DNA of 55,689 nucleotides, taken from the NCBI GenBank assembly GCA_938034415.1, contig CALHLE010000037.1:1-55689 (forward strand), read 5' to 3'. Of this stretch, positions 30,760-38,152 are shown in pieces. How positions within the stretch are numbered: the stretch's first letter is position 1; the number at the start of each line of letters is the position of its first letter. A model generated the notes under the pieces. It made no database searches. It had not been told where the DNA came from and was given only the letters and a program-made list of their open reading frames with translations. Made by a program: the position numbers and the translations under genes. Source of the stretch: an uncultured Anaerolineae bacterium (lineage in GTDB: Bacteria; Chloroflexota; Anaerolineae; J036; Brachytrichaceae).

Positions 30760-30869
30760 GATTGTCGCCTCAACCTTTTGACTCGCCTGATTCTACCGGA
30801 GGCGGCCGGTGCCTTGCGCATGGCCAGAGGCGCTGGCCGACGCAGCGGCGGCAGAGGACGTGACACAGA

Positions 30870-30905
30870 GACGCGCTGTGGGGCAGTCCGGTCACACAGC
30901 GCGTC
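30870..30905 (-). terminator. Strong hairpin after the puf cluster (possible terminator)
   Basis: GACGCGCTGTG (30870-30880) and CACAGCGCGTC (30895-30905) form a perfect 11-bp stem with a 14-nt loop, 17 bp after the stop of the small membrane gene. No U-tract follows on the minus strand, so it may be a stability element or a Rho-type stop. Confidence 0.5.
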
Positions 30906-30921
30906 CCTGCGGTCTAGCCGG

Positions 30922-31083
30922 CTAACGAGCAGCTTGCTCGTCGCGCTTCTCGGTGGCGTGCTGCGGCAACTGGCTCTCTTCAACGGCGTTTCGGTCGGTC
31001 GCCAGAAAGAGCACAAACAGCCCGGCTGAGCCGAGCAGCAACAGCACTACACATAACAGCGCTTCCGTGCTTGGGATGAGCAT
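30922..31083 (-). CDS. Small one-helix membrane protein at the end of the puf operon
   Basis: A 53-codon gene. GGGAGG lies 6 nt before its ATG, the strongest ribosome-binding site in the cluster. The protein starts MLIPSTEALLCVVLL, with one transmembrane helix at about residues 8-30 (ending in the GSAGLFVLFLA segment), and has a charged, Glu/Gln/His-rich tail. I do not recognise a family. It is 75 bp after the PucC-like gene on the same strand and ends just before a strong hairpin, so it appears to be the last gene of the puf transcript. A role in the reaction-centre or antenna complex, or its assembly, is inferred from position. Confidence 0.6.
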   Translation of the reverse strand: MLIPSTEALLCVVLLLLGSAGLFVLFLATDRNAVEESQLPQHATEKRDEQAAR

Positions 31084-31158
31084 GTTCAACCTCCCACTTC
31101 AGCGATTAGTTGCTGTCGCCAGTCGTCAGCCACCAATCGCCGCTCATGAGTCATACAC

Positions 31159-32484
31159 CTATGCGCCAGGCACATCCGTCAACCCAGCGAACGCCGACTG
31201 GCCTTTCTCCCGAGTGACGAACGCCTCGCGCGGCATCGCGATCAACAAAGCCAGCGCCACGGCGATCAACCCCATCTCAACTGCGTACACGGTCGTATAG
31301 CCTCGCGCCAGGTCGCCGGTGACGCGCGAGACAACATCGCGCAGGTTGCTGCCGGCCAACGCAGCCAGCCCGGCCGCCGACGTCTGCGCCAATCCCCACA
31401 TGCCGACGTACATGCCGGCCGTCTTGATGTCGGCCAGAGAAGCGACCAGCGAGAGCGTGGAGATCAGGAATAAGCCGGTGGCGATGCCGATCACGCCCGT
31501 CCCGCTGATGAACATCGCCACCGAGTGGTTCGCGCTGGCCATGGTGATCAGGCCAAAGCCGACCAGGCCGACCAGGCAGGCAGCCAGCGTGACCGGGATC
31601 GGCGAATCCAGGCGGGGAATGACCTGCCAGGCGATCAGCATGGCGATCAGCATGCCGATGCCCCACATGGCCGTAAGCCGAGTCGTCTCTGCGACGCTCA
31701 TGCCGAGCACCTGTCCGCCATACGGCTCCAGCAGGACATCCTGCGCCGTCAGCCCCAGCGTGCCGAAGAACAGGATGGCAAAGAACAGGCGCATCTTCGG
31801 CGTCCCCAGCACCGCCCAGATTTGGCTGGAGAAGTCTTCTGCATCGTCCTCCAGTTCCACGGGCTGATCCTGCTTCCAGATGGCCGCGATGGCCAACACC
31901 AGGAAGATCACCGAGGCCGATTGCATCACTTGGATCAGCTTCATCGGATGGAAGTCCTGCAAGAAGAAACCGATGACGAACGCGCTGATGATCTGGCCGG
32001 TGATCAGCGCAATCCACAGCAGCGCCATGGCGCGGCTGCGCTCGTGCTTGGGGGTGAGGTCGGTGACCAGCGCCAGGTAGCCGGTCTGCCCGACATGCGT
32101 CCCGACGGCATACAGCAGGAAGATCAGCGTGCAGAAGAAGACGGCGATGGGGAATGGCACATCGCTGTTCAACTGGGACGCTTTGCTCAGCAGCAACAAC
32201 GAGAAGGGCGCGGCAGACAGGCCACAGAACACGAACATCGTGCCATACCAAGCGTAGGGCAGGCGCCGGTAGCCGAAGGTCTTCTTCTCCTTATCAGAGC
32301 GGAAGCCCATCAGCGCGCGCACAGGAGCGACAAACAAGCTGAGGCTGAGCAGCCAGCCGACGATGCCGGCCGGGATGCCCTCTTCCGCGATCAGCACGCG
32401 GTTCAGCGCGCCGTTGAACACGACCACGCTGAACCCCAAGCCGAGCTGAAAGAGGCTGAGTCGCAGGAGCCGCTTGTTGATCAC
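31159..32484 (-). CDS. PucC/LhaA-family antenna assembly transporter
   Basis: A 441-residue MFS-fold membrane protein of the PucC/LhaA (bacteriochlorophyll delivery) group, with about 12 helices. Recognisable motifs are LGLGFSVVVFNGALNRVLI at the start, the VAPVRALMGFRSD loop and YRRLPYAWYG. PucC and LhaA help assemble light-harvesting complexes in purple bacteria and Chloroflexota, probably by shielding or delivering pigments. Its place directly after pufC, same strand, fits that role. A hairpin separates the two genes. Confidence 0.88.
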   Translation of the reverse strand: MINKRLLRLSLFQLGLGFSVVVFNGALNRVLIAEEGIPAGIVGWLLSLSLFVAPVRALMGFRSDKEKKTFGYRRLPYAWYGTMFVFCGLSAAPFSLLLLSKASQLNSDVPFPIAVFFCTLIFLLYAVGTHVGQTGYLALVTDLTPKHERSRAMALLWIALITGQIISAFVIGFFLQDFHPMKLIQVMQSASVIFLVLAIAAIWKQDQPVELEDDAEDFSSQIWAVLGTPKMRLFFAILFFGTLGLTAQDVLLEPYGGQVLGMSVAETTRLTAMWGIGMLIAMLIAWQVIPRLDSPIPVTLAACLVGLVGFGLITMASANHSVAMFISGTGVIGIATGLFLISTLSLVASLADIKTAGMYVGMWGLAQTSAAGLAALAGSNLRDVVSRVTGDLARGYTTVYAVEMGLIAVALALLIAMPREAFVTREKGQSAFAGLTDVPGA

Positions 32485-32571: not shown

Positions 32572-33795
32572 CTACTGCGGCGGCAACTTGGGCGCAGGCA
32601 TCGGCAGATCCACCAACGGTTTGATCTGCGGATCGCTCACCTTCTGCGGCACCTCGCCTTCGCCGGGCAGGTAGGCGCCGGGCGGCACGACGTTGCCGCG
32701 GTGGCACATCCAGCAGTTCGGCTGCGCCAACGCGCCGCGCGTCGGGTCGGCCTTCGGCATCTGCGGGAACCAGTTGATGGCGATGTCTTGCACCATGCCG
32801 AGCATATGGCGAGACTGCGACTTAGGCCACTTGAACGTGCCGTCTTCCAGCACGTACGACTTGAAGTAGCCGCCGTAGTGGCAGAAGTCGCAGCCGACGC
32901 CCAGCGCCGTGTTCATGTGGTACATCGCCGCCTGGTTGCGGTAGGTGTCGTTCAGGCCGGCGGGCGTATCCTTGTTGGCAGTCACCTGGAAGTAGTTGAT
33001 GTTGCCTTGTGCGTCAGGCCGGGCCGCCAGCAGTTTGTCGTCCACGATCTCGTAGCTGGCAGGTGGCTTGCCGTTCAGCGTGATGCCGTAGTGCTTCATG
33101 TCGTACTGCGTCGGGTTGCCGCCGCCGGCGATGCCGAACATCGCCAGGTTCTCGATCGTGGGCACGTTCTTCTGATCGGTGTTCCAGAACTGCGCCTTGC
33201 CATAGTGACAGGTCGCGCACTGCAGTTGATACAGCGGCTGACCCTGCGGCCGCGGGATGCTGCTGATCCACTTGTTCTGCAGTTCAAACTGCATGATCAG
33301 CATCGCCTTGGCCACGGTCTTCTGCGGCTTTTCATAGGCGGCGAAGTTCTGCAGGTTGTGGCAGTACTCGCAGCTCTGGCCAACGCCAGGCGTGAAGTAC
33401 TTGCTCATGTACTCGAACACCTTGGCCGTGCTGTTGTATTGCGGCCCGAGATACTGGGTGAGCACCTGCACGTTGACCGTCTGCGGATTCTGCTGTTGCC
33501 AAACGTTATACGCTTGAAGCGCCTCGGCGCTCGGCTGCGCAATCGGCTGCTTTAGCCGGTTGAGGTACTCGACGTAGTCAATCCGCTGCACGCCGGCGTA
33601 GTTGTAGGTGCTCTCGGCGCGGAATCCCTCAAACTCGCGCCAGTCGGCAAGCGCCATGGACAGGGCGATCACGCCGCCGAGCGCGAGGATGGTCATGGCC
33701 ACCAGGCCGACCAGCTCGCCGCGCAGAATCTCGCGTTGTTTCTCGTCGTAAACGGCGATTGCGCCAGGAGGAGCGGGATTATTCTCAAGGGACAT
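32572..33795 (-). CDS. pufC: Photosynthetic reaction-centre tetrahaem cytochrome c subunit
   Basis: A 407-residue cytochrome subunit that passes electrons to the special pair on the outer face of the membrane. Four CxxCH haem sites are present: CEYCH, CATCH, CDFCH and CWMCH. An N-terminal cytosolic part is followed by one helix at about residues 28-50, with no lipobox, so the protein is membrane-anchored rather than lipidated. The ribosome-binding sequence GGAGG overlaps the pufM stop codon. The gene order pufM-pufC, 9 nt apart, indicates translation from one mRNA. Confidence 0.95.
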   Translation of the reverse strand: MSLENNPAPPGAIAVYDEKQREILRGELVGLVAMTILALGGVIALSMALADWREFEGFRAESTYNYAGVQRIDYVEYLNRLKQPIAQPSAEALQAYNVWQQQNPQTVNVQVLTQYLGPQYNSTAKVFEYMSKYFTPGVGQSCEYCHNLQNFAAYEKPQKTVAKAMLIMQFELQNKWISSIPRPQGQPLYQLQCATCHYGKAQFWNTDQKNVPTIENLAMFGIAGGGNPTQYDMKHYGITLNGKPPASYEIVDDKLLAARPDAQGNINYFQVTANKDTPAGLNDTYRNQAAMYHMNTALGVGCDFCHYGGYFKSYVLEDGTFKWPKSQSRHMLGMVQDIAINWFPQMPKADPTRGALAQPNCWMCHRGNVVPPGAYLPGEGEVPQKVSDPQIKPLVDLPMPAPKLPPQ

Positions 33796-33804
33796 GACAG
33801 CCTC

Positions 33805-34695
33805 CTATGGCACGCAGGCTTTCTGCAAGCCTGGCACGATACCGGCGCGGCAGCCCCAATCGAACCAGTTGGGTTCGACCGGCCCGCTCAGCAACACGCC
33901 GATGGCGCCGGCCACGGCGACTAGCGTGGCGAAGCCCAGAGCCCACTGGTGAATGGTGTAGGCCGTCGCGTTAAACCCCATGACCCAGCGCCACAGCAGC
34001 TGCGCACGGTGCGTCCCTTCGTCGCTCTTCTCGATCTCGTCAATCTCGCGATGCGCGCCGTAGGACAGCGTGGCCAGGATGGTGGCGCCGTGCATGGCTA
34101 GGAGCAACGTGCTGCCGAGCAGCGCGAAGATCGAGACCATGTGGAAGGGGTTGTAGTAGAAGTTGCCGTACTTGACGCTGAAGTGGTTGGTCCACAACAA
34201 GATGCCGCGCAGGCCATGCGGCGGCGCTTCGTTCCACGAGTTCACCCAGATCGGGTGGATGATGTAGATGGCCGCATAGAGGAACAGCGCCGCGCTGAAG
34301 GCGATCGGCACCATCGGGCGCAGGCCGTTGGCCACGGCGCGCGTCCAGATGCGGATCGTCCAGAACACCAGCGTCAACGAGAGGAACAACGTGGCGAGCT
34401 GCCAGTAGCCGCCCTCCTGCAGCGGCGCCATCTGCAAGCCGGCCGATGGCGGCGGCGGATAGAGCGTGAGCACCGGCAGTTCGCGCAGGAAGCGAATTGG
34501 GTTGTAGCCCACCTGCTCGCCAAAGCCAATGGCGGTGATGAACACGCACAGCAGGTAGGAGAAGAACGCCAGCGCACCCCACATCCCCAGGTAGATCGGG
34601 CCGATCTGCGTGTCGGCCAGACCCTCCAGGAAGCGGAGATACCTTACGGTTTTGGTGCGCCGCTCGAAGCTCTCACGATACACTTCTGTAGCCAT
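33805..34695 (-). CDS. pufM: Photosynthetic reaction-centre M subunit
   Basis: A 296-residue type-II reaction-centre M subunit with five membrane helices. Ligands seen are the special-pair His in YNPFHMVSIF, iron-site His in LLAMHGATIL and in YTIHQW, a Glu in REIDEIEKS, and the quinone-pocket WRWVMGFNAT. In the place of His M182 (purple-bacterial SHLDW) the sequence reads ILLW, so this site should hold bacteriopheophytin, as in known Chloroflexota centres. The start ATG 34695 has GGAGAG before it; an upstream in-frame TTG at 34707 lacks support. It is separate from pufL, with 105 bp between them. Confidence 0.95.
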   Translation of the reverse strand: MATEVYRESFERRTKTVRYLRFLEGLADTQIGPIYLGMWGALAFFSYLLCVFITAIGFGEQVGYNPIRFLRELPVLTLYPPPPSAGLQMAPLQEGGYWQLATLFLSLTLVFWTIRIWTRAVANGLRPMVPIAFSAALFLYAAIYIIHPIWVNSWNEAPPHGLRGILLWTNHFSVKYGNFYYNPFHMVSIFALLGSTLLLAMHGATILATLSYGAHREIDEIEKSDEGTHRAQLLWRWVMGFNATAYTIHQWALGFATLVAVAGAIGVLLSGPVEPNWFDWGCRAGIVPGLQKACVP

Positions 34696-34800
34696 ACGTC
34701 TCTCCAAGAGTCAGATGGTCGGCGCTCAGCATCCGAAGTCGTTCATCTGAAGCCTTAGTTGGCTCAAATCCCAACCCGAACCTGAGTCCCACCAGCCGAG

Positions 34801-35658
34801 CTAGTTGAACGGGAAGGCCTTCCAGAACGGCGCGTAATCCCAGAAGTTCCAGAAACCGCTCCAGTCTTGGACCACCGTGCCGGACAGCACGAAGCACAGG
34901 TTGCTCATCAGCACGCACATCACCGCTGCCCAGAAGGCCAGGCGATGAATGCCGATCTCGCCAATGCTGTAGCCGAAGAAGTCCCAGTAGAAGCGGTTGA
35001 CGTTCTCCTCCGTCACGCCCTCGCTCTTCTTGCGCGCAGCGCTCAGGATGGTGGCACCGTGCAGGGAGAGCACGAACGCGCTGCCGAACAGCAGGGTGAT
35101 GCCGATAGCGTGGAAGGGGTTGTAGAAGAAGTTGTAGTAGCGATAGCCGAAGGCCGAGAGCCAATCCAGGTGAGCCATTACACCAAGCGGGAAGCCCTCG
35201 GACCAACTGCCGAGCAGGATGGGGCGCACGATCTGGATCGTCACCCAAGAGGACAACACCGCTCCGAAGGCAATCGGCACCTGATACCCGATCTTCAGCA
35301 GGCGCGAGATATCTATCTGCCGCATCATCCAGGCGAAGAACGTGACGGTCGCGCAGAAGACTACGAAGAGCCACCAGAAGCCCTTGTCCGGGTCGAAGGT
35401 TATGGATAGGCCAACGCTTGGCGGCGGCGGCGCAATTTGCCCGCGGATGAAATTCAGCAGTGGGTTATTCGTCCGATTGGGGTCAACGAACAACACCTGC
35501 CAGAACCATACGCCTGATCCGAGCACGCCGAAGAACAGCGCCACCACGCCCCAGAAACCGAGGTAGAAGCGGCCGATCCAAATCTTCAGCAGACCGAACG
35601 AGGCACGCGCAGGGACAGCCATCGCCTCTTGGCGATATTTCGCCTCGAATGACAACAT
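34801..35658 (-). CDS. pufL: Photosynthetic reaction-centre L subunit
   Basis: A 285-residue type-II reaction-centre L subunit with five membrane helices. Conserved ligands are His in MAHLDWLS (accessory bacteriochlorophyll), His in NPFHAIG (special pair), and iron-site His in LSLHGATIL and in EIGIHRLA. The purple-bacterial His L168 is replaced by Phe in NFFYNP. The N-terminal 20 residues before the first helix are longer than in purple bacteria. GGAGAC lies about 8 nt before the ATG. It is not fused to pufM. Confidence 0.95.
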   Translation of the reverse strand: MLSFEAKYRQEAMAVPARASFGLLKIWIGRFYLGFWGVVALFFGVLGSGVWFWQVLFVDPNRTNNPLLNFIRGQIAPPPPSVGLSITFDPDKGFWWLFVVFCATVTFFAWMMRQIDISRLLKIGYQVPIAFGAVLSSWVTIQIVRPILLGSWSEGFPLGVMAHLDWLSAFGYRYYNFFYNPFHAIGITLLFGSAFVLSLHGATILSAARKKSEGVTEENVNRFYWDFFGYSIGEIGIHRLAFWAAVMCVLMSNLCFVLSGTVVQDWSGFWNFWDYAPFWKAFPFN

Positions 35659-35859
35659 AAGCCTGTCTCCTCGGAGCCAGGGCTGCGGGCATTTGGGCTT
35701 GTCGTCGCTGATGCGGTCGTCCGTGTGGAGGCGGGGCGAATGATGGATAAAAGGATGATGAAAACACTCGCAGCGTCGCTAACCCGAACACGGCCCACCG
35801 CACTCACACGCGCCTCAACAACCCAACAGCCCGGACTCAACCATTTGACCGATAAGAAA

Positions 35860-35936
35860 CCGGCGGAGGGTGCATCGCCGCGCTATCCAACTGCTCTCGC
35901 TCGTTCGGCCTTTCTAGCGCTGCAGCCCTCCACCGG
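35860..35936 (-). promoter_or_regulatory. Intercistronic hairpin between pufA and pufL
   Basis: In the minus-strand RNA, CCGGUGGAGGGCUGCA (35936-35921) pairs with UGCACCCUCCGCCGG (35874-35860), giving about 15 pairs including one G-U, with one bulge and a loop of about 46 nt. It lies 18 bp after the pufA stop. In Rhodobacter a hairpin at the same place protects the antenna part of the puf mRNA, so the same is inferred here. The other 200 bases of the 296-bp pufA-pufL gap show no gene. Confidence 0.65.
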
Positions 35937-35954
35937 CGAATGATGACTAACGCT

Positions 35955-36083
35955 TCACTTCAGCCAGAACGTGTTCCAGCTTGAACTCAGTAGCACAAAG
36001 TGGATCAACAGCGTCGTCAGCACCGCTGTCACGACGTAGATCCCTAGTGCCGTCTTGAAGTCTATGAACTTCGGATCTCTCAT
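35955..36083 (-). CDS. pufA: Light-harvesting complex alpha subunit
   Basis: A 42-residue antenna alpha polypeptide, too short for usual gene-calling limits. It has a polar N-terminus (MRDPKFIDFKTALG), one transmembrane helix, and the bacteriochlorophyll-binding His in TLLIHFVLLSSS, ending WNTFWLK. GGGAGGTGA precedes the ATG with good spacing. It follows pufB by 36 bp in the same operon. Confidence 0.92.
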   Translation of the reverse strand: MRDPKFIDFKTALGIYVVTAVLTTLLIHFVLLSSSWNTFWLK

Positions 36084-36119: not shown

Positions 36120-36281
36120 TTACGGATTTGGCGAGATCCAGGGCTTGTACATTGCGATGATGATGTGAATCAGCCCGGCCAGGATGAAGAAGATCCACGA
36201 ACCCAGCACGACGAGTTGGTGTTGCAACCACTCCTCGTTGGTGAACAGTGGCCTCCATCGCTCTGGAACCTTATCGTTCAT
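36120..36281 (-). CDS. pufB: Light-harvesting complex beta subunit
   Basis: A 53-residue antenna beta polypeptide, first gene of the operon. It has a polar N-terminus (MNDKVPERWRPLFTNEEW), a membrane-surface His in LQHQLVVLG, and the pigment-binding His in LAGLIHIIIAMYKPW, the usual two-His beta pattern. A strong GGAGGTGA site lies 9 nt upstream. The 5' untranslated RNA would be about 70-75 nt from the predicted promoter. Confidence 0.92.
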   Translation of the reverse strand: MNDKVPERWRPLFTNEEWLQHQLVVLGSWIFFILAGLIHIIIAMYKPWISPNP

Positions 36282-36363: not shown

Positions 36364-36404
36364 ATTGTATGATGGGTCGCCTCTATGTCAACTAGTCAGT
36401 TGAC
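36364..36404 (-). promoter_or_regulatory. puf operon promoter with palindromic operator
   Basis: TTGACA (36391-36386) and TACAAT (36369-36364) form a near-consensus promoter with a 16-bp spacer. A perfect 7-bp inverted repeat, GTCAACT-AGTC-AGTTGAC (36387-36404), covers the -35 box, where a bound protein would block or reshape RNA polymerase entry. An outer 7-bp repeat (GGTCGCC 36375-36381, GGCGACC 36423-36429) frames it. The regulator is unknown; a copy of the half-site GTCAACT lies at 38006-38012, just before the kinase gene. Confidence 0.65.
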
Positions 36405-36436: not shown

Positions 36437-37996
36437 TCACGCCGCGCGCGGCAGGCTAAAGCTGAAGCGCGAGCCGGGCTGCCCATCGCTGTTGCCTTCC
36501 ACCCAGATGCGTCCGCCGTGGGCTTCGACGATGGCTTTGCTCAGGTACAGCCCCAGGCCGGCGCCGGGAGTGCCGCGCCGGATAGCGCTCTCCGACCGGT
36601 AGAAGCGCTCGAAGATTTTGTCTCGCTCCTCCGGCGGCACGCCTACGCCCTGGTCGGCCACGGTAATAATCACTTCGTTCGGCGTAGCGCGGCCGGTGAT
36701 GCGGATCTCGCTGCCCGGCGGGGAATATTTCACTGCATTGGAGATCAGGTTGCTGAGGACCTGCGTAATGCGCGCCTCGTCGGCGAACACCAGCGGCATG
36801 TCGGACGCAATATCAGCGATGATCTTGTGTGATGGCGTCTGTGCCTCAAACTTCTTCGCCACCCGCACCACCAAATCGTCAATATCTAATTCAACCGGCG
36901 TCAGCTTAAAGTTGCCGGCCTGAGCGCGCGATGCGTCGAGCAGGTTTTCGATCAACTCGGCCAGGTGATCAGCTTCCTCTTCGATGACCTTCAGGCTTTC
37001 GCGGACCGTTGCTTCATCCCATTGCGCGTCGGCGCGGCGCAGCGTGCTGGCGTAACCCTTGATCAGTGCGACGGGCGTCTTCAACTCATGGGACACGGCC
37101 GAGATGAAGGTGGCCTTCATCTCTTCTGCAGCGCGAAACCGAGTGAGGTCGTGCACGTCGGCGATGATGTTCACCAGCCGCCCCTCGCGGTTAAGCAAGG
37201 CGGCAAAGGCTATCTCGACGCTGATCACGCCGCCGCCGCGTCGTTGTAGATCGCCCTCGACAAACAGCGCCGGCGACGTTCCCACCATCGGCCAGCCTTG
37301 CGCCTCGGCCTCTTCGAGCGTCGCACCGGCACGCTTGTTCTTCAAGATAAGCACCTCCTCGAACCTTTTGCCGATCGCCTCGGCCGCCGGAACGCCGATG
37401 AGATTTGACATGGCGCGGTTGAACACCTGAATGCGGTGCGCGCCATCCATGATAACCACGCCGTCGGCGCTGAACTCGAGGATCGCGTCCAGCCGGCGCT
37501 TTTCATGGGTGAGTTGCTCATACAGGCGGGCGTTGTTTACGGCGATGGCGGCCTGATCGGCGAAGCTCTGCAATATCCGTCGGTCGTCGCGGCTGAATCC
37601 GCCGCCTCGCATGCGGAAGACGTAAAGCGCCCCTAGAAACTCGTCCCCTTCCACCTTCAGCGGCAACGAGACCACCTCCCAAAACCCTAGCCCTACTCTC
37701 TCGGCGATGGCGACGAGGTTGCGCTCCAGCGCCGTTACGGCCTCGTCTACATCCTCTATCCGATGCAGAATCGGCCTGAGCTGATCTAACAGTGGTTGAG
37801 GGATGCCGTAGGACTGTCGAATGGTGTAACGCGCGTCTGGCTCAACCAGCGCGATCAGCGCCGCCTGGCCGTTCAACATGTCGGTCGCCTGTTGCAAGAT
37901 CAGTCGCAACACCTCATTCAGGTTGAGCCGCGAGGTCAGCGCGCGGCTGATCTCGAGCAGGTAATCGCGCTGGCGGACGCGGTAATCGGGCAGCAT
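36437..37996 (-). CDS. GAF-PAS sensor histidine kinase upstream of puf
   Basis: A 519-residue soluble kinase. Residues of about 15-165 form a GAF domain, about 175-290 a PAS domain (DAILEFSADGVVIMD). HisKA follows with the phospho-accepting His in AVSHELKTPVALIKGY, then the ATPase domain (NLISNAVKYSPPG, DQGVGVP, GAGLGLYLSK). No conserved chromophore Cys is seen in the GAF domain, so it is not an obvious phytochrome. It lies upstream of puf on the same strand and could sense redox, light or a ligand, but no pairing with a regulator can be shown. The start chosen is ATG 37996, with AGGAGG 3 nt upstream. Confidence 0.88.
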   Translation of the reverse strand: MLPDYRVRQRDYLLEISRALTSRLNLNEVLRLILQQATDMLNGQAALIALVEPDARYTIRQSYGIPQPLLDQLRPILHRIEDVDEAVTALERNLVAIAERVGLGFWEVVSLPLKVEGDEFLGALYVFRMRGGGFSRDDRRILQSFADQAAIAVNNARLYEQLTHEKRRLDAILEFSADGVVIMDGAHRIQVFNRAMSNLIGVPAAEAIGKRFEEVLILKNKRAGATLEEAEAQGWPMVGTSPALFVEGDLQRRGGGVISVEIAFAALLNREGRLVNIIADVHDLTRFRAAEEMKATFISAVSHELKTPVALIKGYASTLRRADAQWDEATVRESLKVIEEEADHLAELIENLLDASRAQAGNFKLTPVELDIDDLVVRVAKKFEAQTPSHKIIADIASDMPLVFADEARITQVLSNLISNAVKYSPPGSEIRITGRATPNEVIITVADQGVGVPPEERDKIFERFYRSESAIRRGTPGAGLGLYLSKAIVEAHGGRIWVEGNSDGQPGSRFSFSLPRAA

Positions 37997-38152
37997 CTTC
38001 CTCCTGTCAACTGTCACTGAACGACGGCTAAGTGATTTATACTGGCAGCCGCAATCTCACGCTTGACTAATATACCCGTGATACTCATACGAGTCTGAGA
38101 CTGGATCGGTTACGCGGGTGATCATCCGGCTTTTTAATAGAGGTACAGAGCG

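Follow-up and report, generated by a model that had tools for sequence, protein, structure and literature searches.

A 53-codon frame at the end of a Roseilinea-type puf operon as a probable counterpart of the Roseiflexus Z/h subunit

The window, the whole 55,689-nucleotide stretch of contig CALHLE010000037.1 that was analysed, comes from an uncultured Anaerolineae bacterium; of its relatives that bear a name, MAGs of Candidatus Roseilinea are the nearest. Its minus strand carries, in order, pufB (LH-beta, 36120-36281), pufA (LH-alpha, 35955-36083), pufL (34801-35658) and pufM (33805-34707; both PF00124), pufC for the RC cytochrome subunit (32572-33795; PF02276), a pucC-like gene (31159-32484; PF03209), a small frame (smORF, 30922-31083) predicted to encode a single-helix RC-LH subunit of the Z/h/N family, a hairpin, and upp; pufB and pufA each have a weak NCBIfam match to the family of that name. 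The promoter-like sequence upstream of pufB, TTGACA-N16-TACAAT (36364-36391, minus strand), is a match to consensus only. The ORF next to pufB on its upstream side, also on the minus strand (36437-38000), was judged by eye to be sensor histidine-kinase-like and is a possible regulator of the operon. Separately, a long gap of some 300 bases lies between pufA and pufL (35659-35954) and by coordinates is also found in relatives.

The smORF is read from 31083 to 30922 (minus strand), and its 53 codons give the product MLIPSTEALLCVVLLLLGSAGLFVLFLATDRNAVEESQLPQHATEKRDEQAAR, within which lies the peptide NAVEESQLPQHATEK. All of the local features named in the original prediction are present: a small frame downstream of the PucC-like gene, a GGGAGG ribosome-binding site, one membrane helix, and a hairpin just after the frame. 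The binding site (31090-31095, minus strand, 6 nt 5' of the ATG) was read directly and is retained in close relatives. An in-frame TTG at 31089 was considered as the start and ruled out, because in relatives such as G400 this TTG is out of frame and the ATG is kept. The smORF protein has one membrane helix; a single-sequence AlphaFold model gives a lone helix over residues 4-52, with block-mean pLDDT of 95-97 across residues 11-30. In this the product fits the Z/h/N family, whose members have a single membrane helix and about 48-68 residues. The hairpin (30867-30908, minus strand; core 30870-30905; fold z -3.6) lies between the smORF stop and upp, and its stem, 13 pairs in the genus alignment, is retained across 7 genomes, both bases having changed at 2 of the pairs; it has no T-run and is a possible end of the puf transcript. 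The proposal that the smORF is the last gene of the puf operon holds for the conserved block, with the qualification that in close relatives, and only there, upp follows on the same strand.

A search of related genomes for the same frame after pucC, as had been suggested at the outset, found it intact and directly following pucC in 15 of the 16 Roseilinea-family genomes with a type II RC (source genome counted; an RC-bearing genome being one in which the PufL/M family, PF00124, was found). The exception is G403, whose contig (apparently identical with L007) stops about 40 bases beyond pucC. None of the 12 Roseilinea-family genomes without PF00124 has the smORF. Pairwise differences fall mostly at third codon positions (385/117/843 by position), mean pN is 0.086 against a mean pS of 0.54, and 14 positions of the protein do not vary within the family; G404 encodes exactly the protein of the source genome, yet the two genes differ at 35% of their synonymous sites (pS 0.35). 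That the smORF is merely open by chance and yields no protein would be in keeping with its shortness and with the fact that no family model covers it: Pfam and NCBIfam gave no significant match, the best noted being FtsL_Actino at E 0.048, far below its cut-off. That explanation is contradicted by the codon-position pattern, and by strong purifying selection on a frame conserved in 15 genomes, and its probability is negligible. The smORF is a real gene under strong purifying selection.

A direct search with the single protein found nothing in the PDB, and the family profile found only weak matches there, to 8ydm_N (E 0.94) and to a cytochrome bo3 subunit (E 0.19). Of these two, 8ydm_N alone kept the invariant columns, and the cytochrome bo3 subunit was set aside.

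The original prediction pointed to small extra helices in the Roseiflexus RC-LH complex whose genes had not been assigned. This is now outdated: in 2023 two papers gave the genes of three Roseiflexus castenholzii polypeptides, named X, Y and Z in one and TMx, I and h in the other (PMC10516601, PMC10432797). The last of the three, Z in eLife 2023 and h in JBC 2023, lies between PufM and LH-alpha 11, contacts both and has its N-terminus in the periplasm, and the helix at the ring gap is X; the two papers disagree on whether Z/h occupies the place of the H-subunit helix or is a mismatch with that helix (PMC10516601, PMC10432797). That h and Z are the same is inferred from their shared PDB sequence and from the 10 kb distance to puf. 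In Roseiflexus sp. RS-1, presumably the genome used to locate the Z, X and Y genes, a 63-residue ORF about 10 kb from pufLM is 8hju_Z/8iug. X and Y were located in RS-1 by length and marker residues, confirmed against the PDB chains and then used for negative comparisons. The two (X, 32 aa, L161:18034, plus strand; Y, 39 aa, L163:7360, minus strand) are about 30 kb apart. Among the conserved hydrophobic small ORFs near puf in Roseilinea, no counterpart of X or Y was found.

All Chloroflexaceae RC genomes tested, G118 among them, encode chain N of 8ydm. In C. aurantiacus the gene for chain N begins a few bases after a DUF169 gene, between bchX and bchI (L122:9144-10186). The product of this DUF169 gene may also be related to photosynthesis. 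Psh1 is the name of a Chloroflexus RC-LH subunit.

Profiles were made of the Roseilinea smORF (A1), the Chloroflexaceae N family (A2), the Roseiflexaceae Z family (A3) and all of these combined (A4). With hhalign, A1 scored 31.5 against A2 (P 7e-6) and 32.5 against A3 (P 3e-6); the maximum of the null set, more than 200 membrane-segment profiles of PucC, PufL, PufM and PufC plus 300 column shuffles, was 19.1, and reversed profiles gave 9-12. The three profiles align without gaps and in one register over about 30 residues, placing C11 of the smORF protein with C23 of Z and C21 of N, and share the core (L)-C-x3-L-x5-G-x7-T-[D/N]-x2-A. Their conserved faces, at 10, 20 and 14 degrees from the Cys, are on nearly the same side of the helix. 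The more distant Roseiflexaceae sequences of G142 and G385 have T-N as in Chloroflexaceae and are otherwise Z-like, and so appear to bridge Z and N. Between lineages, single sequences are only 15-33% identical to the smORF protein in the core, and the claim of homology therefore rests on profiles and controls.

When one lineage was left out of the model, the search still recovered that lineage's gene, ranked at the top of thousands of ORFs. With the N+Z model the smORF takes ranks 1-5 among 5324 ORFs (best E 1.9e-4), with the R+Z model N takes ranks 1-6 among 6725, and with the R+N model Z takes ranks 1-2 among 9612. The first of these signals comes from more distant family members, the source genome's own copy scoring poorly (E 2.4). 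In whole-genome searches the smORF came first in three Roseilinea-family genomes, G413 and G276 with A3 and G405 with A2; at phylum scale, A1 alone recovered neither Z nor N. One unrelated ORF in RS-1 (L167:3102-3359), probably a non-coding frame, reached E 8e-4 with the Roseilinea model and was taken as chance. Since a chance ORF can reach this value, single E-values near 8e-4 are not proof, and what counts is that several independent searches arrive at one locus. These comparisons identify the smORF as a homologue of Z/h and 8ydm N, and not of X or Y.

The suggestion that the smORF encodes one of the small extra helices of a Roseiflexus-type RC-LH complex is thus supported and narrowed to Z/h (scores of 27-32). 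The accompanying analogy with PufX, PufW or PufY found no support. PufX, PufW and PufY belong to the opening of the LH1 ring, and pufX stands at the end of the Rhodobacter puf operon; a small single-helix protein encoded at the end of puf could on those grounds be a ring-gap helix, X-like or functionally PufX-like, that forms a quinone channel. The smORF profile, however, scored 8.6 against X and 8.4 against Y, with two sequences in each of these comparisons, and 27.3 against just two Z sequences; and in a PDB search with A4 up to E 10 no PufX, PufW or PufY chain was matched. The Roseiflexus gap helix being X, which the smORF protein does not resemble, a ring-gap role is disfavoured and must be considered very unlikely.

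Another possibility is that the product is an assembly factor, working with PucC to build the antenna or the RC from outside the finished complex. In every smORF-bearing genome the pucC-like gene is directly upstream, always so in the Roseilinea family, and in Chloroflexaceae a pucC-like gene also lies within about 3-6 kb of the N gene. Against this, no pucC-like gene was found beside Z in the Roseiflexus stretches examined, and the smORF homologues are resolved as chains of finished RC-LH complexes (PMC10516601, PMC10432797), so that a purely assembly-related role seems improbable. The reading we prefer, with a probability of about 0.87, is that the smORF encodes the Roseilinea version of Roseiflexus Z/h and 8ydm chain N, an integral RC-LH subunit.

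The likenesses to the named systems are of different degrees. R. castenholzii Z/h (PDB 8hju, 8hjv, 8iug, 8iun, 8j5o, 8j5p) shares with the smORF protein its size, single helix and gapless core, a gene location among photosynthesis genes, and an RC without PuhA; the Roseilinea protein has a shorter N-terminus and a different cytoplasmic tail, and its gene is last in the puf operon, whereas that of Z is about 10 kb away, upstream of bchY-bchZ. The Chloroflexus-type chain N likewise has one helix, with C-x3-L, F and T-[DN]-x2-A in the same register, and occurs once per RC genome; it differs in its basic tail (ARRxR..RKPxAGS), in some ten extra N-terminal residues in most members, and in a gene placed between the DUF169 gene and bchI. 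Thus the gene is found at the end of puf in Roseilinea, near bchX/bchI in Chloroflexaceae and upstream of bchYZ in Roseiflexaceae. R. castenholzii X and Y (I) are also unannotated single-helix RC-LH polypeptides, but they occupy other places in the complex and have no sequence similarity to the smORF protein; PufX, PufW and PufY of purple bacteria resemble it only as small puf-linked or RC-LH1-bound helices.

If the solved complexes are a guide (PMC10516601, PMC10432797), the smORF protein would sit at the site between PufM and LH-alpha, as a single helix running from a periplasmic N-terminus to a cytoplasmic C-terminus. One conserved face would pack against PufM, the most likely partner, and against the LH-alpha helix. 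By homology the role would be a fixed, structural one: keeping an RC that lacks PuhA (H) in place within the ring of its antenna. On the cytoplasmic side, a capping or stabilising role may fall to the protein's tail, which is lineage-specific and reads S-x-[LM]-P-[QED]-H in Roseilinea, and the last place in the pufBALMC-pucC operon would let the protein be made together with its partners.

The distribution of the family bears on its wider role. Like Z/h/N, the smORF lies among photosynthesis genes and is present only with a type II RC. Among 400 Chloroflexota genomes, A4 matches all 37 that carry PF00124, once each and at E <= 4e-14, and none of the remaining 363 falls below E 0.002 (the best of the rest is at 0.002). 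The 37 of 37 is partly circular, A4 having been built from many of the genomes it was matched to: only a minority are independent, with seven (G024, G061, G094, G230, G260, G295 and G375) used in no profile. No phototrophic Aggregatilineales (Anaerolineae) were seen in the 400-genome sample. PuhA (PF03967) had no match over its cut-off in the 18 genomes checked.

The Roseiflexus structures did not settle whether the small extra helices belong to the core or are local ornaments. The same helix turns up in all three type II RC lineages sampled, in 37 of 37 RC genomes and in no genome that lacks an RC, which speaks for Z/h as part of the core. A broader and more tentative proposal, which we hold at somewhat less than even odds, is that Z, h, N and the smORF protein are one ancient subunit, universal in the core of Chloroflexota type II RCs, which takes the membrane-anchoring part played in purple bacteria by the PuhA helix and was present before the photosystems of Chloroflexaceae, Roseiflexaceae and Roseilinea diverged or were exchanged. 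The smORF itself adds to an already known kind of subunit, Z/h; its apparent universality is the interesting part. The family provides a marker for annotating and expressing Chloroflexota type II RCs, and as a candidate stand-in for the H-subunit helix the smORF/Z/h protein bears on the evolution of type II RCs.
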